From an uncultured Lactobacillus sp. (GTDB lineage: Bacteria > Bacillota > Bacilli > Lactobacillales > Lactobacillaceae), in NCBI RefSeq assembly GCF_910589175.1, contig NZ_CAJURR010000010.1, forward strand, positions 1-64,000: DNA of 64,000 nucleotides, read 5' to 3'. The translations under genes and the position numbers were made by a program. The notes beneath the pieces are model-generated. The model did no database searches, was not told where the DNA came from, and saw nothing but the letters and a program-made list of their open reading frames with translations. Positions 11,996-62,580 of this stretch are shown here, in pieces (position 1 is the first letter of the stretch; every line of letters begins with the position of its first letter).

Positions 11996-14017
<2,022 letters not shown>

Positions 14018-14040: not shown

Positions 14041-16284
14041 TTATATCTTTTTAATCGGTGCAAAGGCAGCTAAAAGGCGTTTCACTCCTTGGCTAGCAAA
14101 GGCAATATCTAATTCCATATCTTCGCCAGTACCGTTAACTTTGACTACAATGCCTTTCCCCCATGCTTTATGGGTAACTTGATCACCAACATTCCAGGAC
14201 TTTTTATCTGCTCCGACTGCCCCACTCGCCTTCTTTGCGGTTTCAATTTTAGCTTTTGGACGATAAACCTGAGAATTGGCACGTTCTCCATTATTAGCAA
14301 AGGGAATAGACATAGAAGCATTAGATGGAATTGGGTTAATAAATTCCAAATCTTTATCTTCAATTTCATCAATAAAGCGAGATGGCTCATTACGTTGTGG
14401 TCGCCCATACATCATTCTAGAAAAAGCATTGGTTATGTATAGTTTCTTTTCAGCTCGCGTAATTCCTACATAGGCCAGACGACGTTCTTCTTCAAGTTCA
14501 CTTGGATCTTCTGCTGCTCTTGAAAGTGGGAAGAGTCCCTCTTCCATTCCAACCAAGAAGACCACTGGAAACTCTAATCCCTTCGCAGCATGAAGTGTCA
14601 TTAATGCAACTTGGTTATCTTGATTTTCTAAATCATCTTGATCACTTAATAATGAAATCTCTGAAAGAAAATCACCCAAAGCTGTTGAATCCTCATCTTC
14701 GGGCTCATAATTATCGTCAAAACGCTTAGTAACAGTCAGAAATTCATTTAAGTTTTCTAATCTCGTATCTGCTTCAATTGTGTGTTCATTTTCTAAAGCT
14801 TCTTTGTAGCCAAAATCCGCTAATATTTTTTCCGTTAAACCTGTTACACCATGCGTCTTACTATATTCGATTGCATCTTTTAAGGCCGTTCCAAAAGTAG
14901 CTAGCGTTCTAGCTGGGCGACCCGTAATTGGTGCTAAACTCAAATTCTTAAAAGTCTCTTCTACTGTAAAGTCATTATCATTAGCAAAACCGTTAAACTT
15001 AGCCATCGTAGTTGGACCCAAACCACGTTTTGGTACATTAATAATTCGGTTGAAACTCATGGAATCAGCAGGATTTGCGACAACTTTTAAATAGGCTAAA
15101 ATATCTTTAATTTCTTTTCGGTCGTAGAACTTATGTCCACCAACAATACGATAAGGAATATTTGCCTTAACTAAGGCTTCTTCAACGTTACGTGATTGAG
15201 CATTGGTCCGATAAAGAACGGCAAAATCTTTATAGTCTCTTTGATGTTCTTTTATTTCCTCTTTAATCTTTGAAATGATAAACAGTGCTTCATCATTTCC
15301 ACTTTGAGCCCGGTAATAATTGATTTTATCGCCAGCGCCTTTATCCGTCCAAAGTTTCTTAGGTTTACGTTTTAGATTATTTTTAATTACTGAGTTAGCT
15401 GCATCAAGAATGTGACCGGTAGAGCGGTAGTTTTGCTCTAATTTAATAGTAGTAACTTCATCATCTTGATAGTCATGCTCAAAATTAAGAATATTTTCCA
15501 TGTTAGCTCCGCGCCAACCATAGATCGACTGATCTGCATCCCCAACAACGCAAATATTTTTATATTGAGCAGCTAAAGCAACACAAAGTTGATACTGTGC
15601 TTCATTCGTATCCTGATACTCGTCTACTAAAATATAGCGGAATTTATTTTGATAATAATGCAAAGTTTCTTTATCCTTTTTAAATAAGACGAGCGTTTGC
15701 ATAATTAAATCATCAAAATCCATAATTTGATCACGCTTTAAGCGATGTTGATATTCGCTATATACTTGCGCTGTTACCTTTTCAAACGGACTAGCTGCTT
15801 GCTCCTTAAAGTCTTTTGGAGTAAGTAAGTCATTTTTTCCATTCGAAATAGCGCCTAAAATTGCTTTTGGATCGTACATTTTAGGATTAATATTAAGATC
15901 CTTTTCAATTCGCTTAATTAGTGTCAATTGTTCTGCAGAATCAGCAATTGAAAAATTATTGGAGTAGCCAATTTTTTCTGCGTCTCGACGCAAAATACGG
16001 ACACATAACGCATGAAAAGTTGACATCCAAACACTGTCAGCTGCTGGTCCTAATAACTTTTGGACACGTTCTTTCATTTCGCTAGCTGCCTTATTAGTAA
16101 AAGTAATGGCTAAAACATTCCATGGCGCAACGCCCTTTTCTTCAATTAAATAGGCAATTCGACGTGTTAAAACTGATGTTTTTCCACTACCAGCTCCAGC
16201 AACTACTAAAAGTGGACCTTCAGTACACTGCACAGCTTTTTTCTGCTGAGGATTTAATCCTGCAAGAATTGTTTCTTCGCTCAT
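14041..16284 (-). CDS. pcrA: ATP-dependent DNA helicase PcrA
   Basis: A 747-residue UvrD/PcrA superfamily 1A 3'-5' helicase for repair and rolling-circle replication. The Q motif LNPQQ is near residue 10, Walker A AGAGSGKT at 29-36, Walker B VDEYQDTN, motif III GDADQSIYGWRGA, motif VI VGITRAEKKLY, and a C-terminal Tudor-like RNA-polymerase-interaction segment (VGDQVTHKAWGKG). The frame is open 24 codons further upstream, but I start at ATG 16284 because it has a GGAAG ribosome binding site and matches the family N-terminus (MSEETILxGLNPQQ). First gene of the run through dgkB. Confidence 0.97.
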   Translation of the reverse strand: MSEETILAGLNPQQKKAVQCTEGPLLVVAGAGSGKTSVLTRRIAYLIEEKGVAPWNVLAITFTNKAASEMKERVQKLLGPAADSVWMSTFHALCVRILRRDAEKIGYSNNFSIADSAEQLTLIKRIEKDLNINPKMYDPKAILGAISNGKNDLLTPKDFKEQAASPFEKVTAQVYSEYQHRLKRDQIMDFDDLIMQTLVLFKKDKETLHYYQNKFRYILVDEYQDTNEAQYQLCVALAAQYKNICVVGDADQSIYGWRGANMENILNFEHDYQDDEVTTIKLEQNYRSTGHILDAANSVIKNNLKRKPKKLWTDKGAGDKINYYRAQSGNDEALFIISKIKEEIKEHQRDYKDFAVLYRTNAQSRNVEEALVKANIPYRIVGGHKFYDRKEIKDILAYLKVVANPADSMSFNRIINVPKRGLGPTTMAKFNGFANDNDFTVEETFKNLSLAPITGRPARTLATFGTALKDAIEYSKTHGVTGLTEKILADFGYKEALENEHTIEADTRLENLNEFLTVTKRFDDNYEPEDEDSTALGDFLSEISLLSDQDDLENQDNQVALMTLHAAKGLEFPVVFLVGMEEGLFPLSRAAEDPSELEEERRLAYVGITRAEKKLYITNAFSRMMYGRPQRNEPSRFIDEIEDKDLEFINPIPSNASMSIPFANNGERANSQVYRPKAKIETAKKASGAVGADKKSWNVGDQVTHKAWGKGIVVKVNGTGEDMELDIAFASQGVKRLLAAFAPIKKI

Positions 16285-16330
16285 TGCTTCTTCCTTTTCT
16301 GTTAACTCAAACGCTAAAATAGACTTGTCT

Positions 16331-16336
16331 ATTATA
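16331..16336 (-). promoter_or_regulatory. pcrA: Probable -10 element for the pcrA operon
   Basis: A perfect TATAAT on the minus strand lies about 47 bp upstream of the pcrA ATG, directly after the terminator hairpin of the preceding gene. No good -35 is visible at 17 bp. The hairpin overlaps the place where a -35 would be. Confidence 0.5.
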
Positions 16337-16339
16337 ACA

Positions 16340-16378
16340 AAAAACGACAATAGCATTTACTTAACTATTGTCGTTTTT
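16340..16378. terminator. Terminator after the GH73 gene
   Basis: A 14-bp perfect stem, AAAAACGACAATAG (16340-16353) with CTATTGTCGTTTTT (16365-16378), T-rich on both strands. It ends transcription of the glucosaminidase gene a few bases beyond its stop and immediately precedes the pcrA promoter region. Confidence 0.85.
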
Positions 16379-19357: not shown

Positions 19358-20470
19358 TTAGTTAACAAGTGCCTTTTCACTCTCTATATCAAAGAAATGT
19401 GCTTTATTCATATCAAAACCCATCTTTACTTTTGCACCTGGCTTAACAAAGTCGCGTGCATTAACTTTTGATACTAGTTCTGTTGGGCCAAGTGTACAGT
19501 AAAGCTGAGTCTCGTCTCCTAATAATTCAGAAACTGATACAATTGCTTCAACTACATTTTCGGGAAATGATTCTAAAAATACTTCTTCCGCATGAACATC
19601 TTCTGGGCGAATACCAAAAATTAACTCTTTTCCCTCGTAACCTTTTTCCTTCAAAGTTTTTAACTTTCCTCCCGGAACGGGAATAGTAAACTCTTCATTT
19701 TCTTTATCAATAATTTTGCCATCTTTTAAAATGACATGGAAAAAGTTCATTGCTGGTAATCCTATAAAACCTGCAACAAAAATATTTGCTGGCTTATTGT
19801 AAACTTCCATTGGTGTACCTACCTGCTGTTGAACTCCATCTTTAATTACAACAATCCTATCCGCCAAAGTCATAGCTTCAGTTTGATCGTGAGTAACGTA
19901 AATTGTAGTGGTTTTTAAATCCTGATGGATTTTTACGATTTCAGCACGCATAGTAACACGTAATTTTGCATCTAGATTGGACAAAGGCTCGTCCATTAAA
20001 AAGATTGGAGCATCACGCACAATTGCACGTCCTAAAGCAACCCGCTGACGCTGACCGCCTGATAAAGCTGCTGGCTTACGTTTCAGATATTGCGTTAACC
20101 CTAAAATTTTTGCAGCTTTTTGAACCTTTTCATCAATTTTATCTTTTGAATACTTCTTTAGCTTTAAGCCAAAGCTCATATTGTCATAAACACTCATATG
20201 GGGATATAAGGCATAGTTCTGAAAAACCATAGCAATATCACGGTCTTTTGGAGCCACATCATTCATTACTTTTCCACCGATTTTTAGTGTCCCGCTAGAG
20301 ATATCCTCTAATCCAGCTATCATTCGTAAAGTTGTAGATTTACCGCAACCAGACGGTCCAACAAAAACAATAAATTCGTGATCATCAATATGTAAGTTAA
20401 AATCTGATACAGAATCTTTATCATTACCCTCATATTTTTTATATACGTGATCAAGATCTACTTTAACCAT
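19358..20470 (-). CDS. msmK: Multiple-sugar ABC transporter ATP-binding protein
   Basis: A 370-residue CUT1-family ATPase that powers MsmEFG. Walker [10 protein letters not shown] lies at about 38-46, the ABC signature ALSGGQRQR near 135-143, Walker B IFLMDEP, H-loop YVTHDQ, and a C-terminal regulatory TOBE-like domain of about 120 residues. I start at the ATG at 20470 with GGGAGG upstream. The frame extends six codons to a TTG, but that TTG would overlap the ribosome binding site. It lies only 2 bp after bfrA. MsmK proteins can serve several sugar importers. Confidence 0.93.
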
Positions 20471-20472
20471 TT

Positions 20473-21759
20473 TTATTTTTCCTCCCAAGTCAAACGATAA
20501 ATTTCACTAATAAAAGTTACTATACTCAAGCTATCATGCTTGCTAAATAATTCTAAAGTTGAATTATCAATTACAAATATTAAACAGGATACTTTACTAT
20601 TCCAATTAACTTTCTTCTCAAAAACAGGTCCATCAATATTGATTAGATAATCTTCATCTGACTTCTCAATTGAGATGTTTCCATTAATTCCATGCAATAC
20701 TAATTTCTTATCTTTTGGAAAACAAAAGTTCAATTTATACGAACCATTTTCAATACTTTGATCTATTGGCGTGTTTATCTCGTCTATCTTACCAATTGGA
20801 ACTTGATGTAAGTAACCATCATTATCTAACAATTTTCTTGGAATTCCCATTATTCCATTCCAAGCATGACCGGTTCTATCCAAATAATTAACATGATCTA
20901 CACTTCTTAACCAAGGAATTAAAATATGTTCTCCATTTTTAATTAATGATTGTGGAGCATAAAAATCATCTCCACTATCTAAGCGATGAATTTTCTCTAC
21001 GTTAAATTGAAACTCTTTCCAATCTAATTTTCCTTGAGCACTATAAACAATACTATTTTTACCTTTACCTAAAATAGAACTAAAAATCAAATAGTCATTA
21101 TCTTTAAAAGCGATTAAATCAGGACATTCAGTCATAACACCTAATGCTGGATCATCTTTCAGTAAAACTGTTTTAAACTTCCAATTTAATAAATCACTAG
21201 ATTCAAATAATACAATTGTTCCTTTACCATCAATAGCCACTGCTACTACACAATAATACTTACCATTGTGTTCAAATACTTTGGGGTCCCGAAAGTTAGA
21301 TTCATCAACATTATATGGAATATCTCTAGCCGTCATAACTGGATTGTTTTTATACTTAGTAAAATCAACTCCATTGTCTGTATACGCAATGCATTGAGTT
21401 TCTACCACATGTCCCTTTTCTTCAACATGTCCTGTATAAATAACGTATAACCGATCACCCTTTTTAATTGCAGAACCCGAAAAAACTCCACTTTTGTCAT
21501 AATCATGGTCTGGTTGCATTGCAATTGGCATATCTTGCCAATTAAGTAAATCTTTACTTCGTGCATGCCCCCAATACATTTTGTTCCAAGAAGTTCCATA
21601 CGGATTATATTGATAGAATAATTGATAATAATTTTGGTAATAAACTAATCCATTTGGATCATTTAACCAGCCATAAGGAGCAGTGAAATGAAATTCAGGT
21701 CTGAGAATATCTTGATCCAAATTTCTTATTTTCTTGTATAAAGATTCATTTGCTTTCAT
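20473..21759 (-). CDS. bfrA: Intracellular beta-fructosidase (GH32)
   Basis: A 428-residue GH32 enzyme that hydrolyses terminal beta-D-fructofuranosyl bonds in sucrose and short fructo-oligosaccharides. Nucleophile D34 lies in WLNDPNG, transition-state stabiliser D158 in FRDP (157-159), and acid/base E211 in TECPDL. No signal peptide, so the substrate is cleaved inside after transport. The C-terminal beta-sandwich is present. The position between msmG and msmK matches bfrA of the L. acidophilus FOS operon. A sucrose-6-phosphate hydrolase is the alternative, but no PTS gene is adjacent. Its start overlaps the msmG stop. Confidence 0.92.
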
Positions 21760-32667: not shown

Positions 32668-34665
32668 TTAAAGTCTAACAGCATCTAAATCCGCATCAGT
32701 AATATTTATCAAGTCTTCTTCTGAATAACTGTCACTCAGGGCTACGCGTACTGCTTGTTTCTTTATGATCTTATCATTTAGATTTCTGACCCAACGCCCA
32801 TTACTGTTATCGTTATCCTTACTTAAATTATTCTTCAGTAAGTCTGCATAACTTGAAGGATTTACATGATATTGTTGTTTCTTTAGAGCAAACAAGCCAA
32901 TTTGAACCATTTCATCAACTGTATAATCTTCAAAATCAAATTTATTCGGAATACGACTACGTAATCCTGGGTTAGTTTCTAAAAACTTCTCCATATCGTT
33001 AGTATAACCAGCAAAGATGATCATAATATTAGAACGATGATCTTCCATAAACTTTAATATTTCATCAATTGCTTCTTTACCGAAATCATTCTGACCACCA
33101 CTAGCTAGGGTATATGCTTCATCAATAAACAAAATTCCCCCTAAAGCTGATTCAAGAACTTTTCTAGTTTTTTCAGCTGTTTGACCAATATAGCCTGCTA
33201 CTAAATCAGCTCGAGATGTCTCAATTAACTTATCTTCAGCTATTACGCCTTTTTCATATAGAACATGGCCAACAATGCGAACAACTGTTGTTTTTCCAGT
33301 TCCTGGATTTCCTAAAAACAATGAGTGCAAAGTTTGAGAACTAGTATTTAAACCTTTTTCTTCACGTTTTTTATTTAAAACAGTGACTGCAATAAATTCT
33401 TTGACTTGTTGCTTTACCGTTTCTAGACCAATCATTTCATCAAGCTGCTGCATACCTGATTTTTGAGTACCTTTCGGTAGATCCTTTTGGTCTTTTTCTA
33501 CTTTATGTGCCTGCTTAGAGTTAGATTCTTTTTTCTGGGTAGTAAAGTACTCAATATTGTTTTGTAAATTATCTTTTACTATTGTGTATTGATTATTTTC
33601 ATCCAAATCATACTCATCATTAGTAGAATCAAATTTCAACACATAAACGTCAGGAACATTAAAAGTTACATTATCTTCAATTTTAATATTAGGTGAACTT
33701 TCAAATGCTAGGCCAATCCAGTTTGCCTTTATAGTACTTTCATCTGTTGCAAAAATATTAATTTTGCCGTTATCTCTACCGTCAAGTAAAAGAGTTTCTG
33801 CAGTTAAAATACTATGATCTTCGATAGCAATTGACTCGATAATTCTACTACTATTTCCTATGTCTATCTTACTTTGGTCACAAATAGATATCGAATCAAT
33901 CATTGAATTATCTACTTTTGCCTGAGCAGCTTTTTGTAAATAAAGGGCCCCAGAATAATTAGGTTCTTTAATAATTGAAGAAGCAATATTGAGAGTAGAT
34001 TCGCTGCTAAAAACGCAAGGATAATCTTTTTCTTTTACTCCACCCGTTACAGTTACATTTTGTAATGTAGCAACAGTATTCGAAGATAAACTAAGTACAT
34101 TACTTTCACCATAGCTAAGTGTAGTATTCTGAAGCGTTAAATTCGCTTCAATAGAAGTAATTTTACAATTAAGAGTACTATTTTTTATTTCTAGATTTCC
34201 TTTTTCAACATAAATTCTATGTGCACCGTCACCAATTTTATCCTTTTCAACGTACAAATCATCAAATTGAGCAGTAGCACCATCATCTACATAAATAATT
34301 GGATAATTTTGACCAGTCGTAGCCTCATTAACGACCGAAACATGTGTCGCAATTAACTGACTGTTATTTGTTACTTGAAGACAATTATTCTTATCTTGAT
34401 AGTGTCTCAGAGTCAGATTATTTAATTTTACCTGGGCGCCATTTTTAATGATAAAGCCGCCTAAAATAAAAGTATTATCTTCGCCAGAAATATTTAGACT
34501 CTTGTTAATTACATAATTTTGATCCTCAAGTGGGAACTGATACTCTCTTTTGATTAAAATATCATCCCCATCTGAAGCTTGATTTAATGCATCTTCAAAT
34601 TCCCAGGTAGTACGTTGTTTTTTGAAAAAACCTCGGTCATCTGGTCCAACTACAAAAACCGTCAT
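32668..34665 (-). CDS. Beta-helix / CbxX-SpoVK-type AAA+ ATPase fusion
   Basis: A 665-residue two-part protein. Residues 1-about 345 are a string of short strands typical of a right-handed parallel beta-helix (pectate-lyase-like fold). A charged linker (about 375-405) leads to a single AAA+ domain of the CbbX/SpoVK type: Walker A GNPGTGKTT (452-460), Walker B ILFIDEA (511-517), sensor FAGYTND (551-557) and arginine-finger region NPGLRSRIP. No signal peptide or membrane segment, so cytoplasmic. The beta-helix half is related to the separate protein at 42131-43252. It follows nadE by 24 bp with GGAGGAAAT, so it is likely co-transcribed with pncB-nadE. Function unknown. Confidence 0.88.
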   Translation of the reverse strand: MTVFVVGPDDRGFFKKQRTTWEFEDALNQASDGDDILIKREYQFPLEDQNYVINKSLNISGEDNTFILGGFIIKNGAQVKLNNLTLRHYQDKNNCLQVTNNSQLIATHVSVVNEATTGQNYPIIYVDDGATAQFDDLYVEKDKIGDGAHRIYVEKGNLEIKNSTLNCKITSIEANLTLQNTTLSYGESNVLSLSSNTVATLQNVTVTGGVKEKDYPCVFSSESTLNIASSIIKEPNYSGALYLQKAAQAKVDNSMIDSISICDQSKIDIGNSSRIIESIAIEDHSILTAETLLLDGRDNGKINIFATDESTIKANWIGLAFESSPNIKIEDNVTFNVPDVYVLKFDSTNDEYDLDENNQYTIVKDNLQNNIEYFTTQKKESNSKQAHKVEKDQKDLPKGTQKSGMQQLDEMIGLETVKQQVKEFIAVTVLNKKREEKGLNTSSQTLHSLFLGNPGTGKTTVVRIVGHVLYEKGVIAEDKLIETSRADLVAGYIGQTAEKTRKVLESALGGILFIDEAYTLASGGQNDFGKEAIDEILKFMEDHRSNIMIIFAGYTNDMEKFLETNPGLRSRIPNKFDFEDYTVDEMVQIGLFALKKQQYHVNPSSYADLLKNNLSKDNDNSNGRWVRNLNDKIIKKQAVRVALSDSYSEEDLINITDADLDAVRL

Positions 34666-42130: not shown

Positions 42131-43252
42131 TTAGTCATTGTTCTTCTTTGCTTCCCAACGCATTCCCAAAATATTAATATTAGGTCTACTATTGCATTCA
42201 ACCTCTAAATCTTGAGCACTACTTGAAACAATATTTAGTTTAATCTTAGCATCATCCTGGACTGCAAGCCTACTCCCATTGGGATTAATGATTAAATCTC
42301 GGCCGCCTAAAGTTGCTTGCCCATTTAAGGCTAAAAAATACTCAAAATCATCTCTTCCAGAAAAGGCGACTCTAGTTGCATCTGCCGTGGCCCTATCTTG
42401 AAAATCTGCGTGACTAATAATAGTTGAATTGTTTAATGTTACTTTCGCCTTATCACATGCAATTAAACGATCTATTTTACTATTTTGAATCAAAGTTCTC
42501 GTATTCTTATCAAGAAAAATGCCGCCTTTAAATTCAGACTGTAAAATATTCACCCATGAATCATCTGAAATATAGAAACTAGAGTCATCGTTCTTTTCAA
42601 CCGTTGAATTGAGCATATTTACCCAAGTTTGGCCATGAATTAAACCATATGAAATCGTCGTATTGTTCAAATCAACTTCTGCATTTGAATTAGGGTATGT
42701 ACTTAGATTACCGTGAATCATACTATTAGAAATAATTGCAGTCCCTTTTCCCTGAATACCTAAAGCTGCATAATTTTCAGAATCATAATCAATTAATGAA
42801 TCGGTCATTGTAAGTCTAAAGTCAGCTTGTGCAAATAAGGAAACACTAGAATTCAAAATTTTACTTGAAAATAATTCTAATGTACATTTTCCATTCACAG
42901 CAATTGCGGCCATATCATCTTCATCCCCATAAAGGGTAGTATTACGTAAAGTAAGATAAGTATCGGCAGCATCATCAACATAAATAGTATTATGACCAGA
43001 TTTTGTTTGAAGAGCAATATTTTCTAATGTGAAAAAATTGCAATTACTATCTAATACAAAAAAGCCATTAATTACAGTCTCTTCTGGTGTACTCCCTGTT
43101 CCCTTGATCGTAATATTATTTACTTCTAAGCCTCGATCTAACTCATAAAATCCAGGAGCAAGCAGTAATACATCATCAGGCTGTAAGTCTTTAAGAGCAC
43201 TTTTCCAAGTAGTACCGTCTCCTCGACCACTGACTTTAATAAGACGCGCCAT
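42131..43252 (-). CDS. Stand-alone right-handed beta-helix protein, paralogue of the AAA+ fusion N-terminus
   Basis: A 373-residue protein of many short beta strands with Asn ladders and the recurrent pattern of a right-handed parallel beta-helix. No signal peptide, membrane segment or catalytic motif of a polysaccharide lyase was seen. Its layout parallels residues 1-about 345 of the AAA+ fusion at 32668-34665. Both share an opening strand and acidic turn, an IYVDD segment, late SGRDD/DGRDN and RLIACDK/SISICDQ segments, and a C-terminal PNINI/PNIKI segment. It ends where the partner's AAA+ linker begins. Function unknown; it may be a partner or subunit of the fusion protein. Confidence 0.8.
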   Translation of the reverse strand: MARLIKVSGRGDGTTWKSALKDLQPDDVLLLAPGFYELDRGLEVNNITIKGTGSTPEETVINGFFVLDSNCNFFTLENIALQTKSGHNTIYVDDAADTYLTLRNTTLYGDEDDMAAIAVNGKCTLELFSSKILNSSVSLFAQADFRLTMTDSLIDYDSENYAALGIQGKGTAIISNSMIHGNLSTYPNSNAEVDLNNTTISYGLIHGQTWVNMLNSTVEKNDDSSFYISDDSWVNILQSEFKGGIFLDKNTRTLIQNSKIDRLIACDKAKVTLNNSTIISHADFQDRATADATRVAFSGRDDFEYFLALNGQATLGGRDLIINPNGSRLAVQDDAKIKLNIVSSSAQDLEVECNSRPNINILGMRWEAKKNND

Positions 43253-55119: not shown

Positions 55120-55156
55120 TTTTTATATGAAATCATTTTATTTAATAGGTAAAAAA

Positions 55157-55924
55157 ATGGGTATTGTAGAACAACATATAAAAATGGCAAAAAAGCATAA
55201 TGAAATAATAGGGAAAAAATACAAGACTGAAATAAAGCATAGTGCTATACAAAGTAAAATATTTACCAATGCCTCAGAAGTGAAATATACAGGAAATAAT
55301 TACCCTATTTTAAGTTTTAAAAATATGGATTCAGCACATGCGGGAATATCTCTAAAAGAAAAAGATCCTAACTCAAAAGTAGCTATACTTAATTTTGCAA
55401 ATTACACCATACCAGGAGGAGGCTACTTACACGGAGCACTAGCTCAAGAAGAAGTTTTATGTCATCAATCAGATCTTTATCAAGTTTTAACCAAATTTTC
55501 TCAATACTATAGATGGAATCACACGCATCTCAATCAAAACTTATATGAACATCGTGCTCTTTATACTCCTAATATTGTATTTACAAATTTAGACGGAAGT
55601 TTTGTTAATACACTAGACATTATCACTTGTGCTGCTCCTTGTTATACTATCGCCAAACATAATAATATTTCTTATGAAAAAGCTTGTGTAGTACTAAAGA
55701 AAAGAATGGAATTTGTAAAAAACATTGCTGAATATGAAAGAGTAGATAAATTAATTTTAGGGGCTTGGGGAACTGGCGCATTTGGTTTTCGTGAAATTGA
55801 AGTTGCTAAAATGTGACATGATGTATGGCGCACTACTTCACCGATTAAAGAAATACAATTTGCAGTAATAGATCATTTAGGATTTCAAAATGCACAAATT
55901 TTTAAATCAGAATTTTCAAACTAA
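55157..55924 (+). pseudogene. TIGR02452-type (microbial PARG-like) gene interrupted by an in-frame TGA
   Basis: The ORF reads to a TGA at 55814-55816 after ...GAWGTGAFGFREIEVAKM. In the same frame it continues for 35 codons (HDVWRTTSPIKEIQFAVIDHLGFQNAQIF...) to a TAA at 55922-55924. The extension looks like the normal C-terminal helix and strand of the family, in which a Trp commonly stands at the TGA position, so one TGG to TGA change explains it. The core has the NFANYTIPGGGYLHGALAQEE loop of ADP-ribose glycohydrolases and macro-like domains. If shortened (219 residues), the protein lacks its last strand and is probably inactive. A sequencing error or readthrough cannot be excluded. Confidence 0.75.
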
Positions 55925-55985: not shown

Positions 55986-56978
55986 ATGCGAGTATTAGTT
56001 ATCGGCGGAGCTGGTTACATTGGCTCTCACGCTGTTAGAAAATTAATTGAAGAAGGAAACGATGTTGTTGTCCTTGATTCTCTCTACACTGGTCACAGAA
56101 AGGCCGTGGACAAGAGAGCTAAATTCTATCAAGGTGACATTGAAGATACTAATTTAGTAAGCAAAATCTTGCGTGATGAAAATATTGACGCAGTAATGCA
56201 CTTTGCTGCTTACTCATTAGTTGGTGAATCAGTTAAGAAACCTTTGAAATACTACGATAATAATGTTTCTGGGATGATTTCACTACTTCAAGCTATGGAA
56301 GATGCTAAAGTTAAATATTTAGTCTTCTCTTCTAGTGCTGCTACTTACGGTATTCCTGAAAAATTACCAATTACTGAAGACACTCCATTAAATCCAATTA
56401 ACCCATATGGTGAAACTAAGATGATGATGGAAAAGATTATGCACTGGGCTGACAAGGCTAATGGCATTAAGTCAATCGCCCTTCGTTACTTCAATGTAGC
56501 TGGTGCTTCAAGTGATGGCTCAATCGGTGAAGATCACGGACCTGAAACTCACTTGATTCCTAACATTTTAAAGAGTGCTATTGCAGGCGACGGTAACTTC
56601 ACTATTTTTGGGGATGACTATAACACTAAAGATGGTACTAACGTCCGTGACTATGTTCAAGTTGAAGACCTAATTGATGCTCATATCTTAGCTCTTAAGC
56701 ATGTGATGGACACTAATAAATCTGATGTCTTTAACTTAGGTACTGCTCAAGGATACTCTAACTTAGAAATTCTTGAAGCTGCTAAAAAAGTTACTGGTAT
56801 CGACATTCCTTACACCATTGGTGCAAGAAGAGGCGGAGACCCTGATTCCTTAGTTGCTGATTCAAGCAAAGCTCGTAAAGTTTTAGGCTGGAAGCCAAAA
56901 CACGAAGATGTTGATGACGTAATTGCTACTGCCTGGAACTGGCACAAGAGTCACCCAAAAGGTTACGAAGATAAATAA
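55986..56978 (+). CDS. galE: UDP-glucose 4-epimerase
   Basis: A 330-residue short-chain dehydrogenase-type epimerase interconverting UDP-glucose and UDP-galactose. The NAD-binding GGAGYIGSH lies at about 7-15, catalytic Ser in SSSAATYG, and the YxxxK pair in YGETK. Substrate-side RYFNVAGA and the C-terminal GWKPKH segment are present. AAGGAG precedes the start. It stands alone with its own terminator and supplies UDP-Gal for surface glycans and galactose metabolism. Codon choice looks biased toward highly expressed genes. Confidence 0.96.
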   Translation: MRVLVIGGAGYIGSHAVRKLIEEGNDVVVLDSLYTGHRKAVDKRAKFYQGDIEDTNLVSKILRDENIDAVMHFAAYSLVGESVKKPLKYYDNNVSGMISLLQAMEDAKVKYLVFSSSAATYGIPEKLPITEDTPLNPINPYGETKMMMEKIMHWADKANGIKSIALRYFNVAGASSDGSIGEDHGPETHLIPNILKSAIAGDGNFTIFGDDYNTKDGTNVRDYVQVEDLIDAHILALKHVMDTNKSDVFNLGTAQGYSNLEILEAAKKVTGIDIPYTIGARRGGDPDSLVADSSKARKVLGWKPKHEDVDDVIATAWNWHKSHPKGYEDK

Positions 56979-56981
56979 ATC

Positions 56982-57022
56982 AAAAAATCCATTCAATCAT
57001 CACGACTGAATGGATTTTTTTT
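56982..57022. terminator. Bidirectional terminator between galE and the helicase gene
   Basis: Stem AAAAAATCCATTCA (56982-56995) with TGAATGGATTTTTT (57007-57020), T-rich on both strands. It reaches the stop codon of the convergent helicase gene. Confidence 0.9.
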
Positions 57023-59243
57023 ATTGCAATTGATTAACGCATTTTCTCATTTCTTCAATATCTAAAATACTATGAGCAAATTCTTTTCTCACTAATTCAT
57101 CGGGCAGATATTCATCATATTTATCAAATACCGGTACTTCATTTGGATACACTAGCTCTAATGGGTCAAAATCCTTATTAGCTTCTTCTACTAAAATTTT
57201 CAAAAATTCTTCTTTACTTACATCCATTGCAAATTGCATAAAATACGGACGACTAGAATTAAAGCCACGCAAGCCAATTCGCTTAGCACACTTAATTTTA
57301 ATTAATCTTTCTAAAGCCAAAAATGCATATGTACCTGTCCAAGGAAAGAGACACCACATTTTTCCGCCTAAGTTAATCAAATTACTTTCTAGCATCCCCG
57401 AAGTTTTAGCCGTATCACGCACTTCTTTAAGACGTGCAATAGCATGTTTCATTAAATATGGGTACTGCTTTTTCTCGGTTAAAATTTTATTCATTCTTTG
57501 TAAAATCTCAGGTTGAATATCGCCTGCAACATCCCCAAAATATGCCGGAATACGTCCCTTAACAGGATGGCAATAGACTTGATGTCGTTTACGATCTACA
57601 TCCTCTACTACCCAAACACGACCGGCAATTGCTATTTTATCTCCAACCGGCGGTGGTTTAACAATAGTTCCCAGCTCTTCTGATTCTGACTTAACAGAAT
57701 ATTCTTCATTTTCTTGAAAAACAGCATAAAACTTAAAATTATTAACTATGCGTTCACCGCTTAGACCTACAATTAAACCACCATTTTCAGTTTGCTGAAT
57801 ATGATCTTCTTTAATTAGATGCCTAAGTAATACTCGATAATCATCTTGACTAACATTTCGAAAATAATGCAGTGTCAATACTCGCGAAGCTAACTCTGCA
57901 GGCGTCATTTCACCATTTGAAGCTAAAGTAGACATTGTCTGATGATAGAGCAAACTATACGGTAAGCGATTGGGTTCAGGAGGTTCTACCCATCTTTCTT
58001 CTAAATATAGTTGAACTAAAGCAATTCCTTGTAATAAAGACCATGGAATAATCTCAGGAAGCATCGCACGGGACTCAGGATGTGATTCGCGCATTACAAA
58101 CCACATTTCCGAAGGATTGCCTCTACGCCCCGTCCTCCCCATCCTTTGTAAAAAGCCAGATACAGTAAATGGTGCATCAATCTGAAAGGCACGCTCTAAT
58201 TTTCCAATATCGATACCTAATTCAAGTGTGGCAGTGGCACAAGTAGTCATCAAAGAGTCTTCATCTTTCATTTCTGCCTCAGCTGTTTGCCGATAAGCAG
58301 CCGACAGATTACCATGATGAATTAAAAAACGATCTGGCTCATGTTTTACTTCACAGTACTGCCTCAATACCTGACAAACTGCTTCACATTCTTCCCGGCT
58401 ATTAGTAAAGACTAAGCATTTTTTGCCGCGTGTATGTTCAAAAATATAAGCCATTGATGGATCAGCTGTGTTTGGAGCTTGGTCACTTTTTTCATCTAAA
58501 ACTGGTTGCGCGGGATCAAAATCATTACTATCAGCCTGTGGACCATTATCGTAAAAGTGTTCCATCGATAGCCGCCAAACTTGCCCACTTCCTTCTCCTT
58601 TAGGAGCCCTAGTTTTACGTTTAGAACCAGCATCTAAAAATGCAGCAGCAGATTTTGTATCACCAATTGTTGCAGAAAGTCCAATACGACGAGGATCAAC
58701 ACCGGCTATTTTAGATAATCTCTCGATCAAACAAAAAGTTTGTCCTCCACGGTCAGATCTTAAAAAGGAATGTAATTCATCAATCACAATATATCTCAGA
58801 TTATGAAATAAGTTGGGAATATCCATGTGTTTATTAATCATCAATGACTCTAAAGATTCTGGTGTGATTTGTAAAATACCAGAGGGATGTTTAAGTAATT
58901 TTCTTTTTTGTGTCTGAGTCACTTCCCCATGCCAACGCCATATAGGAATATCAACATCCTGACAAAGTTCGTTTAAACGTTCATATTGATCATTAATTAA
59001 TGCTTTTAGTGGGGAAATGTACAGTACACCCACTGATTGAGGAGGATTTTCATAGAGATTAGTTAAAATTGGAAAAAAAGCAGCTTCCGTCTTACCAGAA
59101 GCAGTCGAAGCAGCTAACAAGACATTATCTTGACTATTAAAAATAGTTTCTGCTGCTCCAACTTGAATGGAACGGAGATTTTTCCAACCATGTTCATAAA
59201 TATAATCTTGAATAAAGGGAGCAAAACGTGTAAAAATATCCAT
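57021..59243 (-). CDS. Lhr-type DEAD/DEAH superfamily 2 helicase (BrxHI-like)
   Basis: A 740-residue SF2 helicase. It has Q-motif-like LRSIQVGA, motif I ASTASGKTE (45-53), motif Ia YISPLKALIND, motif II DELH (156-159), motif III SAT, and motif VI MGRTGRRG, followed by a winged-helix/beta-rich C-terminal part of about 350 residues as in Lhr-like proteins. The nearest known context for this type beside a BrxC/BrxD-like ATPase is type 2 BREX (BrxHI with BrxD). It starts 7 bp after the ATPase gene and ends the three-gene cassette. No nuclease domain was recognised. Confidence 0.88.
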   Translation of the reverse strand: MDIFTRFAPFIQDYIYEHGWKNLRSIQVGAAETIFNSQDNVLLAASTASGKTEAAFFPILTNLYENPPQSVGVLYISPLKALINDQYERLNELCQDVDIPIWRWHGEVTQTQKRKLLKHPSGILQITPESLESLMINKHMDIPNLFHNLRYIVIDELHSFLRSDRGGQTFCLIERLSKIAGVDPRRIGLSATIGDTKSAAAFLDAGSKRKTRAPKGEGSGQVWRLSMEHFYDNGPQADSNDFDPAQPVLDEKSDQAPNTADPSMAYIFEHTRGKKCLVFTNSREECEAVCQVLRQYCEVKHEPDRFLIHHGNLSAAYRQTAEAEMKDEDSLMTTCATATLELGIDIGKLERAFQIDAPFTVSGFLQRMGRTGRRGNPSEMWFVMRESHPESRAMLPEIIPWSLLQGIALVQLYLEERWVEPPEPNRLPYSLLYHQTMSTLASNGEMTPAELASRVLTLHYFRNVSQDDYRVLLRHLIKEDHIQQTENGGLIVGLSGERIVNNFKFYAVFQENEEYSVKSESEELGTIVKPPPVGDKIAIAGRVWVVEDVDRKRHQVYCHPVKGRIPAYFGDVAGDIQPEILQRMNKILTEKKQYPYLMKHAIARLKEVRDTAKTSGMLESNLINLGGKMWCLFPWTGTYAFLALERLIKIKCAKRIGLRGFNSSRPYFMQFAMDVSKEEFLKILVEEANKDFDPLELVYPNEVPVFDKYDEYLPDELVRKEFAHSILDIEEMRKCVNQLQ

Positions 59244-59250
59244 TTTTCAC

Positions 59251-60585
59251 TTAAATTCTAAACTCAGCAAAATCATCTAACTTCTCATTAGAAACTGCCT
59301 CTGATTCGGCATAAGAAAACTTATCTGAATTAAGTAGTTTTTCAACGTCAGTCTCTGGATTTTGCCAAACAATGTCTAATAATTCAATAAAATCACGAAT
59401 AATCTCACGTGGCGTAATATTTGTTGATGCTCCCACACGTGAATATTCAATTTTTATGAACTTTTGTAAATCATCTTCTGTAATTGCCTTTTCATATCCA
59501 TACAGATTAGCATGCATCTCTGCAAGTTTTTCAGTTAAGACAAGCATTTCTTCTGGGGTAAGAGGATCAAGCTTAATAACAGGTGCATACATATCTCTAT
59601 TCCCAGCTTCAGAAAATTTTCCACTAGCAAGACGTGAGCGTAATGCTTCATATGAATATACTCCGCGTCTCTTATCTTCAATTGCCTGCGGGGTTCCACC
59701 CATAATAATTCCAAGATACTTCGACTTTCCTTGTAAGGCATCATTGTACATTGTTAATATCTTTTCATAGTTATATTGGCGGCTAATACTATTTGGAATC
59801 TTATAAATATTGACCAATTCATCAATCATAATCATCAAGCCCGCATATCCAGCTTGTCTAAAGAATGATGCGAACAACTTTAAGTACTCATACCAATCAT
59901 CATCAGATATTACGATATCGACTCCTAATTCTTTTTTAGCCTGTGTTTTATTGGCATATTCACCTCTAAACCACTTAACAACTTTGGCTTTTGTTTCCTC
60001 ATCGTCATTGATATAGGCTTGATAATACATTTCAAGTAACTTTGCAAAATCAAACCCGTGCACTAATTCAGAAAGATTAGAAATTACTGCATAAATTTTC
60101 TTATTGACTGCATCTTCAAAGGCGGGAGTATCATCATTTAATCCCGTATCTGTTCTAACCTGCATTTGAACTGAATTAATCCAGCGATCCAAAATTAAGG
60201 TTAGTGCTCCACCTTCCGGTCTAGTTTTGGTGGAAAGATTTTGAATTAGTTCTCGATAAGTTGCTAATCCTTGGCCTTTTCCACCCTGCAGCCGTCTTTC
60301 TGGCGACAAATCACCATCAACCACAACAAAATTTTTATCCATTACATAATTTCTAATGGTTTGAAGTAAGAAACTCTTTCCCGAGCCATACCGACCCACT
60401 ATAAATCTAAAAGAAGCTCCTCCGTCTTTGATTAGCTCTACATCATGTAATAAAGCTTCAACTTCGGCTTTTCTTCCGACAGTAATGTATGGTAATCCGA
60501 TTCTAGGTACTACCCCACCTTTTAAAGAATTCAAAATAGTTTGAGCTATTCTTTTAGGCACTTTTCTATTTTTATCAATAGCCAT
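59251..60585 (-). CDS. BrxC/BrxD-like P-loop ATPase (DUF2791 family)
   Basis: A 444-residue AAA/STAND-like P-loop protein. Walker A GRYGSGKS lies at 64-71, Walker B LMIMIDEL at 250-257. The N-terminal FRFIVGRYGSGKSF and C-terminal TPREIIRDFIELLD patterns match the BREX BrxC/BrxD (DUF2791) family. In type 2 BREX, BrxD sits beside an Lhr-like helicase, as here. No methylase, PglZ or Lon-like gene accompanies it, so this is not a standard BREX locus. It lies 3 bp after the TerB-family gene and 7 bp before the helicase gene, so all three are one operon. Confidence 0.88.
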   Translation of the reverse strand: MAIDKNRKVPKRIAQTILNSLKGGVVPRIGLPYITVGRKAEVEALLHDVELIKDGGASFRFIVGRYGSGKSFLLQTIRNYVMDKNFVVVDGDLSPERRLQGGKGQGLATYRELIQNLSTKTRPEGGALTLILDRWINSVQMQVRTDTGLNDDTPAFEDAVNKKIYAVISNLSELVHGFDFAKLLEMYYQAYINDDEETKAKVVKWFRGEYANKTQAKKELGVDIVISDDDWYEYLKLFASFFRQAGYAGLMIMIDELVNIYKIPNSISRQYNYEKILTMYNDALQGKSKYLGIIMGGTPQAIEDKRRGVYSYEALRSRLASGKFSEAGNRDMYAPVIKLDPLTPEEMLVLTEKLAEMHANLYGYEKAITEDDLQKFIKIEYSRVGASTNITPREIIRDFIELLDIVWQNPETDVEKLLNSDKFSYAESEAVSNEKLDDFAEFRI

Positions 60586-60588
60586 ACT

Positions 60589-62469
60589 TTAGTTTGTTCC
60601 TTTCAAAAACATATCTTCTAGATCTTCTTGGTAATCTTCAATTACTGTAGGTATATCATTTATAAACTCAATGACATTATCACCAAATTCATCAAAAAGT
60701 TTTTCATTTATATTATCAATTATAACGGCAGCCATTAAATGATGCTCTTTAAGATATTTGTTTAGGTCTTTTCCCTTTAAAAGCAAAATTATGGTGGCCA
60801 TCTCTTCTGAGCTCAACCCATAGTCTTCCTGCTCATCATTTACAACAGTTTCTTCAATTTGCTCCCTTTCTTCTTGTTCAGCTTGAAGTTCTTCTTCAGT
60901 TAATAAACTGTCTCGAGTTCCCGCTGCATCCTCTCGAATTGTAGATAACTGTGACAGGTTAAATTCAATTTTAGGCTGGTTTAATTTTTGTTCCTCTATT
61001 TGATATTCCTTAATTCCATCCCTAATAGCCTCAAGATAATGCTTTTCTATTTTTCTAGGTTTTAAATTTCGTCCCAAATTAAAACGTAATCTTATTTCGC
61101 GATCTACTTCATGCAAAAAATTACCCATAATACTTTTTTGACCAGTCAGTCCCCAGTAAGACTCACAGTACCAGGTATCTTTTTCTTTATCATAAAAATA
61201 TTTTCTAATTTGATCAATTTCATAGCTAGTTGTCTGTGGCTCTAGCTCATGATTAAATACAGCAGCTGAAAATAGTTGAATTGTCATCTGATTCTTATAA
61301 GCAATATAACTAGTAAAAAAATCAAATCCATCATTACGTAAATCTAAAATTTTGTGCCAAATTAGAACTAAAAGATATTCAAATTTTTCTATACTCTTTT
61401 TATACAAGGGGCAATTGCGAATCTTATAATTAGATAACTTGATTACGCTCTCTGCAACTTCGTGGTTAGAAAATTGATCTGGATACAGCAATTGTTCATA
61501 CTTTTTATCATTATCTTGCTCTTTAACAAAAAACGTATCATTTGCTTTATCTATATTATAAAAAATAATATAATCGCGAATCCATCTTTCAAGATACGCA
61601 CCCATCTCCGGTGAAAATTTTTGAGCATAATTTTTATTAAAAGTAATTAACTTATCTAATCCTTCTTCTGGATTCTTAATTCCAACTCCGTTTAATAATT
61701 CATACAAATAAATGTAAGCATAGGAATCTGAAATTTTTTCATAGATATTTTGTCTAATTTTTGTACGCCAAGTAAAATACGTCCGTGCCTGCCCCACTGT
61801 TAAGTCGTGGTAAGTTGGATAATATCGTAAGAAAGATTGTTTTCCGTCATAGTGATCTTCGTAGGAAGCCATTAATTTACCCTGTAAATAAAAATTTTGT
61901 TCTCTACGAACAGATCCTGGTAAAGAATATTGATAGGAGTCAATCATATTTTTTATTTCTTTAGGAACAAGCTGAGTATCTTCAAAATTTAAATTGATTT
62001 TCTCTTCCGTAGATTTAGTTTCTTTTCTAAGTATATTAGATGACCTTTTCCAGTTTTTAAAGTTTAATTTCTGCTCATGATAGACACTTTCTTCATCATT
62101 TTGAATAGTATCAGGAATATAAATTAATTTTTCAGGATTAGGTCGTTTATTGGACATGAGAGCGATTTTAAAAGCATATTCCAATGCTTTTTTTATTTTT
62201 TGATTACTTAACCCTAAGCTAACTTCAACCCACTTAGCTTCTTTTATTAAGAATGAAGCTGAAAAGCCGGGTAAGTCTTTAATTGTTCCTGCAAAATCTC
62301 CACAATTAATATTTAAACTTTTATTTCTAGGATCTAAATTTAAAAGAGCAAACCAATTTTTAGTAATCGGTGAACTAAAAGCTATCAAATTAGGATTGTC
62401 ATTAACTTCACTAATACTATTTTTTCCAAAATGTCTTATAGCATAACTTAATAATTCATCGGTATTCAT
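60589..62469 (-). CDS. MmcQ/YjbR-like + TerB_N/TerB_C fusion protein
   Basis: A 626-residue cytoplasmic protein. Residues 1-about 110 (YAIRHFGK...WFALLNLDPRNKSLNINCGDF...PGFSASFLIKEAKWVEVSL) follow the MmcQ/YjbR fold pattern, a CyaY-like DNA-binding domain. After a linker, residues about 178-390 (SLPGSVRREQNFYLQGKLM...YHDLTVGQARTYFTWRTKIR) match the TerB_N type. About 410-600 resembles TerB_C, with a Glu-rich insert near 535-560. TerB-family domains are linked to tellurite/stress systems and defence loci. First gene of the cassette, with AAGGAGCTGGAG upstream and A/T-rich promoter sequence (TATAGT) between it and the preceding terminator. Confidence 0.78.
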   Translation of the reverse strand: MNTDELLSYAIRHFGKNSISEVNDNPNLIAFSSPITKNWFALLNLDPRNKSLNINCGDFAGTIKDLPGFSASFLIKEAKWVEVSLGLSNQKIKKALEYAFKIALMSNKRPNPEKLIYIPDTIQNDEESVYHEQKLNFKNWKRSSNILRKETKSTEEKINLNFEDTQLVPKEIKNMIDSYQYSLPGSVRREQNFYLQGKLMASYEDHYDGKQSFLRYYPTYHDLTVGQARTYFTWRTKIRQNIYEKISDSYAYIYLYELLNGVGIKNPEEGLDKLITFNKNYAQKFSPEMGAYLERWIRDYIIFYNIDKANDTFFVKEQDNDKKYEQLLYPDQFSNHEVAESVIKLSNYKIRNCPLYKKSIEKFEYLLVLIWHKILDLRNDGFDFFTSYIAYKNQMTIQLFSAAVFNHELEPQTTSYEIDQIRKYFYDKEKDTWYCESYWGLTGQKSIMGNFLHEVDREIRLRFNLGRNLKPRKIEKHYLEAIRDGIKEYQIEEQKLNQPKIEFNLSQLSTIREDAAGTRDSLLTEEELQAEQEEREQIEETVVNDEQEDYGLSSEEMATIILLLKGKDLNKYLKEHHLMAAVIIDNINEKLFDEFGDNVIEFINDIPTVIEDYQEDLEDMFLKGTN

Positions 62470-62533
62470 GGCTCCAGCTCCTTTCGAACATATATTCTAC
62501 TATATTTTTATTTATCTAGCCATGAAGGTACAA

Positions 62534-62566
62534 CAAAAAAACGCTGAAACCATAATGATTTCAGCG
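62534..62566 (-). terminator. Terminator after the CMD-family gene
   Basis: Stem CGCTGAAA (62542-62549) with TTTCAGCG (62559-62566), and a run of A before it (T-run on the minus strand). It separates the CMD gene from the TerB cassette, so the cassette has its own promoter. Confidence 0.88.
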
Positions 62567-62580
62567 CCATTAAATACTCA

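Follow-up and report, generated by a model that had tools for sequence, protein, structure and literature searches.

Towards one end of a 64,000-nt stretch of an uncultured Lactobacillus sp. genome (contig NZ_CAJURR010000010.1; hereafter, the window), three tightly packed genes occupy the minus strand between positions 57,021 and 62,469. The question raised by this locus is whether it represents a defence system in its own right, a remnant of a bacteriophage exclusion (BREX) locus or a module for DNA repair. A sequence-only reading had described it as a compact cassette of a TerB-domain protein, a BrxC/BrxD-like ATPase and an Lhr-type helicase. Profile searches indicate that the trio is almost certainly a chromosomal Shango anti-phage operon, sngA-sngB-sngC.

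Identity and conservation of the operon

The three predicted proteins match the corresponding PADLOC models over nearly their full length: SngA with 243.7 bits (E-value, 1.8e-72; profile positions 32–526 of 528), SngB with 644.9 bits (1.8e-194; residues 6–443 on profile positions 3–438 of 439) and SngC with 946.9 bits (2.4e-285; profile positions 5–719 of 720). The operon and its boundaries are as follows:

60589..62469, minus strand: sngA (626 aa), YjbR-like domain, linker, TerB_N, small beta region and TerB_C with a winged-helix-like end (PADLOC, Pfam, AlphaFold2)
59251..60585, minus strand: sngB, 444 aa BrxD-like AAA+ ATPase, PF10923 (PADLOC, Pfam; weak Foldseek matches)
57021..59243, minus strand: sngC, 740 aa superfamily 2 (SF2) helicase of the BrxHI/Lhr-like group (PADLOC, motifs, nearest solved sequences)
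56982..57020, minus strand: terminator-like hairpin with T-run directly 3' of sngC, convergent with a galE-like gene
62540..62568, minus strand: terminator-like hairpin between sngA and the upstream CMD gene, whose stop it closely follows

The coordinates of the open reading frames (ORFs) confirm the predicted single direction of the genes and the gaps of 3 bp (sngA/sngB) and 7 bp (sngB/sngC). The trio is bounded by the two hairpins, as had also been proposed; because the number of terminator-like sites is not above chance (3 observed in 9 kb vs a mean of 4.1 in shuffles), the evidence lies in their location right after stop codons. A ribosome-binding site (GAAAGGAG) precedes the first ATG in the sngA leader, and no promoter-like site was listed in a scan of the leader (62485–62580).

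The assignment of the ATPase and the helicase was borne out by Pfam, which places PF10923 (BrxC_BrxD) over residues 9–420 of SngB (568 bits), and DEAD and Helicase_C domains in SngC. The Walker A Lys and Walker B Asp-Glu of SngB, as well as the motif I Lys-Thr, motif II Asp-Glu and His, motif III SAT and one motif VI Arg of SngC, are identical in 58 of 58 aligned sequences, and the last motif VI Arg in 57 of 58; judging by these alignments, the catalytic motifs of both proteins are intact. SngB shares 68–91% identity with the 32 other sequences of alignment A4 and has many invariant columns. Its structural model (mean predicted local distance difference test, pLDDT, 77) shows a weak Foldseek likeness to AAA+ proteins, with RdrA as the first match and several ORC subunits also listed. 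This resemblance fits the classification of BrxD as an ORC-Cdc6 AAA+ protein and its proposed role as the loader of BrxHI (PMC12839542, the main text of which mentions neither TerB, Shango nor YjbR). By sequence, the nearest solved relatives of SngC are the ATP-dependent DNA helicases 5v9x and 7lhl, and YprA (6znp); SngC, BrxHI, DruE and DpdJ have been grouped as what may be a separate SF2 clade (PMC12278908).

The Shango operon of PA14 joins a TerB-like protein to an ATPase and a helicase of DEAD/DEAH type. When tested in P. aeruginosa PAO1, it had modest (10–100-fold) effects on plating of many but not all phages, and protected more strongly in liquid culture; an earlier E. coli report on Shango is cited in the same paper (PMC10250203). 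The trio of the window has all three proteins, in the same order, with the same operon layout and catalytic motifs, and differs in that its SngA carries an extra N-terminal YjbR-like domain and lacks a detectable TerB core. An anti-phage role in the Lactobacillus host is very probable. The proposal of a compact defence system apart from BREX is supported, and so is its defensive role, but the system already bears the name Shango, which makes the finding less novel. Among the literature matches listed for Shango and Lactobacillus, none looked related by title and abstract. The mildly new part is an SngA that has a likely DNA-gripping domain instead of the TerB core that names the family.

A scan of genome contigs with SngB yielded 111 relatives, and the best 80 of these 111 were kept as loci. 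The A-B-C order on one strand with short gaps is found in 71 of the 80 (A-B gap −150 to 200 bp, B-C gap −450 to 300 bp; counting genes that are broken or run off a contig); adjacency is thus conserved, against the refuting case of scattered trio members. The exceptions are two loci with little contig left after SngB (L028, L038), two with SngA about 600 bp from SngB (L035, L036), two with SngC 1.1–1.4 kb away (L053, L058), two without SngA beside SngB (L026, L032), and L080, which has a short SngA and no SngC. In a separate search, SngB was found in 34 of 150 relatives (31 of the same genus), with SngA and SngC beside it in 20 of the 20 loci kept; the two counts are not independent, as some genomes are common to both (e.g., G013 and L003). 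L. johnsonii is the source of the closest named SngA clusters, and its strain ATCC 33200 is 96.5% identical to the window over 11.5 kb around the operon. Among plasmids, 680 records contain an SngB relative, all below 60% identity and possibly including other ATPases of the family; the trio was present in all seven records opened, from Paenibacillus to a haloarchaeon. No SngB match was found in the phage collection at 1e-20.

Both loci without a recognisable SngA come from Bacteroidales metagenome-assembled genomes (MAGs). The SngB-SngC pair of L026 (7036–12615) has a gene for a CHAT-plus-TPR protein 144 bp upstream, and that of L032 (3496–8404) has a glycosyltransferase gene upstream.

Architecture and divergence of SngA

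The AlphaFold2 model of SngA (mean pLDDT, 86) and Pfam analysis place the following domains:

62116..62469, minus strand: N-terminal YjbR/MmcQ-like 'double-wing' domain, residues ~1–118, folded part ~1–110
61390..61965, minus strand: TerB_N domain, residues 169–360 (PF13208; E-value, 5.2e-32)
60616..61014, minus strand: TerB_C domain, residues 486–618 (Pfam)

The description of SngA as a TerB-domain protein holds for the flanking TerB_N and TerB_C domains, but not for the TerB core (PF05099). This core has no Pfam match in the SngA of the window up to an E-value of 10, none in the 43 aligned SngAs up to 0.1, and comparison of SngA with five true TerB cores by profile gave a probability of 0.3%. 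Although the core is listed for Shango in PMC10952713, its lack does not disqualify the locus, since the PADLOC SngA model does not need it for a match, as is also seen with the TerB-less SngAs of L157 and L067; Shango is therefore not reliably defined by a 'TerB domain'. Of the seven plasmid SngAs, five (Pseudomonadota, archaeal, fusobacterial) have the TerB core and none showed a YjbR domain; outside Lactobacillaceae, most SngAs likewise gave no YjbR match.

The YjbR/MmcQ domain is supported by both sequence profile and fold: YjbR-family structures take the first four places among the fold matches, which also include frataxin/YdhG-like folds. Single-sequence PDB searches with SngA and with SngB gave no credible relatives. 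The DNA-binding view of YjbR comes from the literature. Among the matches listed for YjbR with TerB or Shango, only PMC7641849 was relevant; it mentions a YjbR-TerB fusion in one sentence, notes MmcQ/YjbR-EVE fusions, and ascribes to YjbR a CyaY-like fold, for which an iron-related role is suggested. These fusions resemble SngA in joining YjbR to a defence-linked protein. They differ in that the passages concerned make no link to Shango, SngB or SngC, and the words Shango and SngA are absent from the paper.

Rates were compared in 57 complete trios (23 of the 80 loci were excluded for truncation, breakage or unusual length). The Lactobacillaceae subset comprised 22 sequences, one of them from the window, and 221 of its 231 pairs had sufficient columns in the alignment. 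The median identities within SngA are 30 for YjbR, 25 for the linker, 46 for TerB_N, 33 for the middle part and 48 for TerB_C, vs 83 for SngB, and 81 and 78 for the two parts of SngC. By simple pairwise estimates based on few independent pairs, dN/dS between the window and ATCC 33200 is 0.28 for SngA (0.63 for its YjbR part) and 0.04 for both SngB and SngC; the neighbouring genes gave 0 (galE), 0.06 (GOR), 0.12 (AKR), 0.05 (CMD) and 0.28 (PARG, partial). Against L004, the values are 0.13 for SngA and 0.04 for its two partners. Positive selection on SngA was not shown by these estimates, as whole-SngA dN/dS is 0.13–0.28 and stays below 1 wherever computed. Neither was YjbR borne out as a hot spot within the species group: among the best 120 of 722 SngA proteins, the linker is the most variable part and YjbR the least.

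The SngA variant and the contrast between the rates of SngA and SngB/SngC are the parts worth keeping. A natural SngA that lacks the TerB core, has a domain of DNA-binding type and evolves at a rate unlike that of its partners suggests which subunit senses, and opens a direct test by domain deletion and DNA binding in lactobacilli. Shango may, tentatively, be modular: SngB and SngC would form a conserved loader-helicase engine, directed by SngA as an adaptor that evolves fast and can be exchanged. This adaptor, in Lactobacillaceae and some other Bacillota, would have a YjbR double-wing DNA reader and no TerB core; TerB would be dispensable and the choice of target would lie in SngA.

Several SngAs of unusual build were also observed. 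Three are oversized: 1093 aa with three TerB_C stretches (L038, 487–3768), 1052 aa, of which a long N-terminal stretch has no Pfam match (L158, 1505–4663), and 850 aa (L069, 835–3387). In L080 (9044–11338), a 318-aa YjbR-TerB_C protein without a TerB_N match is encoded directly upstream of SngB, and no SngC was found in the locus. In L. taiwanensis DSM 21401 (L005, 7478–9349), the SngA frame stops at 432 aa while the similarity runs on, which suggests a broken gene next to intact SngB and SngC.

Possible mode of action and competing explanations

A 2026 review gives the mechanism of Shango as unknown (PMC12926258). It is possible, though somewhat less likely than not, that SngA contacts invading or replicating DNA via the YjbR double-wing, possibly also via its winged-helix-like C-terminus, with TerB_N and TerB_C holding the complex together, and that SngB, as an ORC/Cdc6-like AAA+ ATPase, loads the SF2 helicase SngC, which would travel along DNA and disrupt phage replication or transcription intermediates. 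Since no nuclease domain is listed for SngA, SngB or SngC among their PADLOC, Pfam and NCBIfam profile matches, host nucleases or plain obstruction might finish the job. Thus, we infer SngA to be a DNA-contacting adaptor, SngB a loader and SngC the acting helicase of a system with no nuclease of its own. Taken as a whole, a Shango operon with this kind of mechanism is the best explanation of the locus, and a reasonably probable one.

The homologous ATPase and SF2 helicase lie side by side as in the linked BrxD-BrxHI dyad of type 2 BREX (PMC12839542), and the locus could be read as a reduced BREX type 2 that has lost methylase, PglZ and PglW while working in the same mode. The homology is real (PADLOC, 175 bits for SngB vs BrxD and 437 bits for SngC vs BrxHI), but both proteins score far higher with the Shango models, and SngB, at 175 bits, stays below the NCBIfam BrxD equivalog cut-off of 350 bits. 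PglZ (PF08665) was sought in 79 genomes or records from which the loci derive (50 + 29; L023 of the 80 left out), and matches at E ≤ 0.001 were obtained in 11, eight of them above the cut-off. None was inside the fetched Shango loci, many of which have less than 10 kb of flank as their contigs end, and to that extent the predicted lack of PglZ at the trio was not refuted. On the contig of the trio, PglZ matches occur ~555 kb off in ATCC 33200 and, below threshold, ~126 kb off in the genome of L080; the remaining ones are on other contigs. Several matches sit in frames of ~520 aa, which are presumably PorX-like. Neither PglX nor PglW is among the families in the PADLOC matches listed for the other ORFs of the window, a result limited to the window, as relatives were searched for neither. 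With SngA in place of the BREX core and the trio forming an independent unit from an archaeon to Bacillota, a BREX remnant is extremely improbable and was rejected on model scores, the BrxD cut-off and the PglZ search.

The pairing of an Lhr-like helicase with an ORC-like ATPase, in a chromosomal region where no other complete defence system was detected, would also suit a mainly housekeeping module for DNA repair or replication stress. The kept adjacency to the galE-like gene points the same way: the interval between the galE-like and CMD genes holds Shango in L. johnsonii and L. taiwanensis, whereas L. hominis and two MAGs of Lactobacillus (L012, L024) retain the galE side with a varying other side. 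However, G009 lacks SngB, and its galE-like and CMD genes enclose other ORFs, of 552 and 137 aa; thus, the locus is kept in one clade and absent in other species. Together with the patchy occurrence of SngB among the 150 relatives, its relatives on plasmids and the phage protection shown for homologues (PMC10250203), this makes a housekeeping role unlikely. A somewhat stronger competitor, though still an improbable one, concerns SngA, which might be a signalling or metal-linked Ter-type scaffold with YjbR as a decoration that makes no DNA contact. The scarcity of YjbR in SngAs outside Lactobacillaceae and on plasmids, the frataxin/YdhG-like matches and the iron-related role suggested for the CyaY-like fold (PMC7641849) are in line with such a scaffold. 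Against it stand the YjbR-family structures as the four best fold matches of the N-terminal domain. The TerB core is the part expected to bind metal, and this SngA clade lacks it.

Surroundings of the operon in the window

The placement of the trio inside a defence island was not supported for the window. A PADLOC scan of the 46 other ORFs (E ≤ 1e-5) gave 58 family matches from four ORFs. All four belong to broad families of ATPases, helicases or ligases, and the scan showed no other complete defence system; a wider island was therefore rejected. As many as 52 matches come from a 771-aa UvrD-like ORF (14041–16356), presumably the housekeeping PcrA. Three come from a 376-aa ABC ATPase (19358–20488; mad3, 4.9e-31, AriA and mad8), two weak IetA matches from a 665-aa ORF (32668–34665; 1.1e-10, residues 363–522), and one weak PDC-S48 match from a 668-aa ORF (11996–14002).

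The galE-like gene next to the operon (55986–56978) has a second copy elsewhere, 87–88% identical to the query, in several relatives (e.g., G001, G012, G013 and G017). For the microbial PARG-type gene beside the operon (55127–55816), the match is split and 52–62% identical in L001 and L002, and none is listed in L004 and L005. The first half of the 665-aa ORF looks, by eye, like repeats of the 373-aa ORF at 42131–43252.
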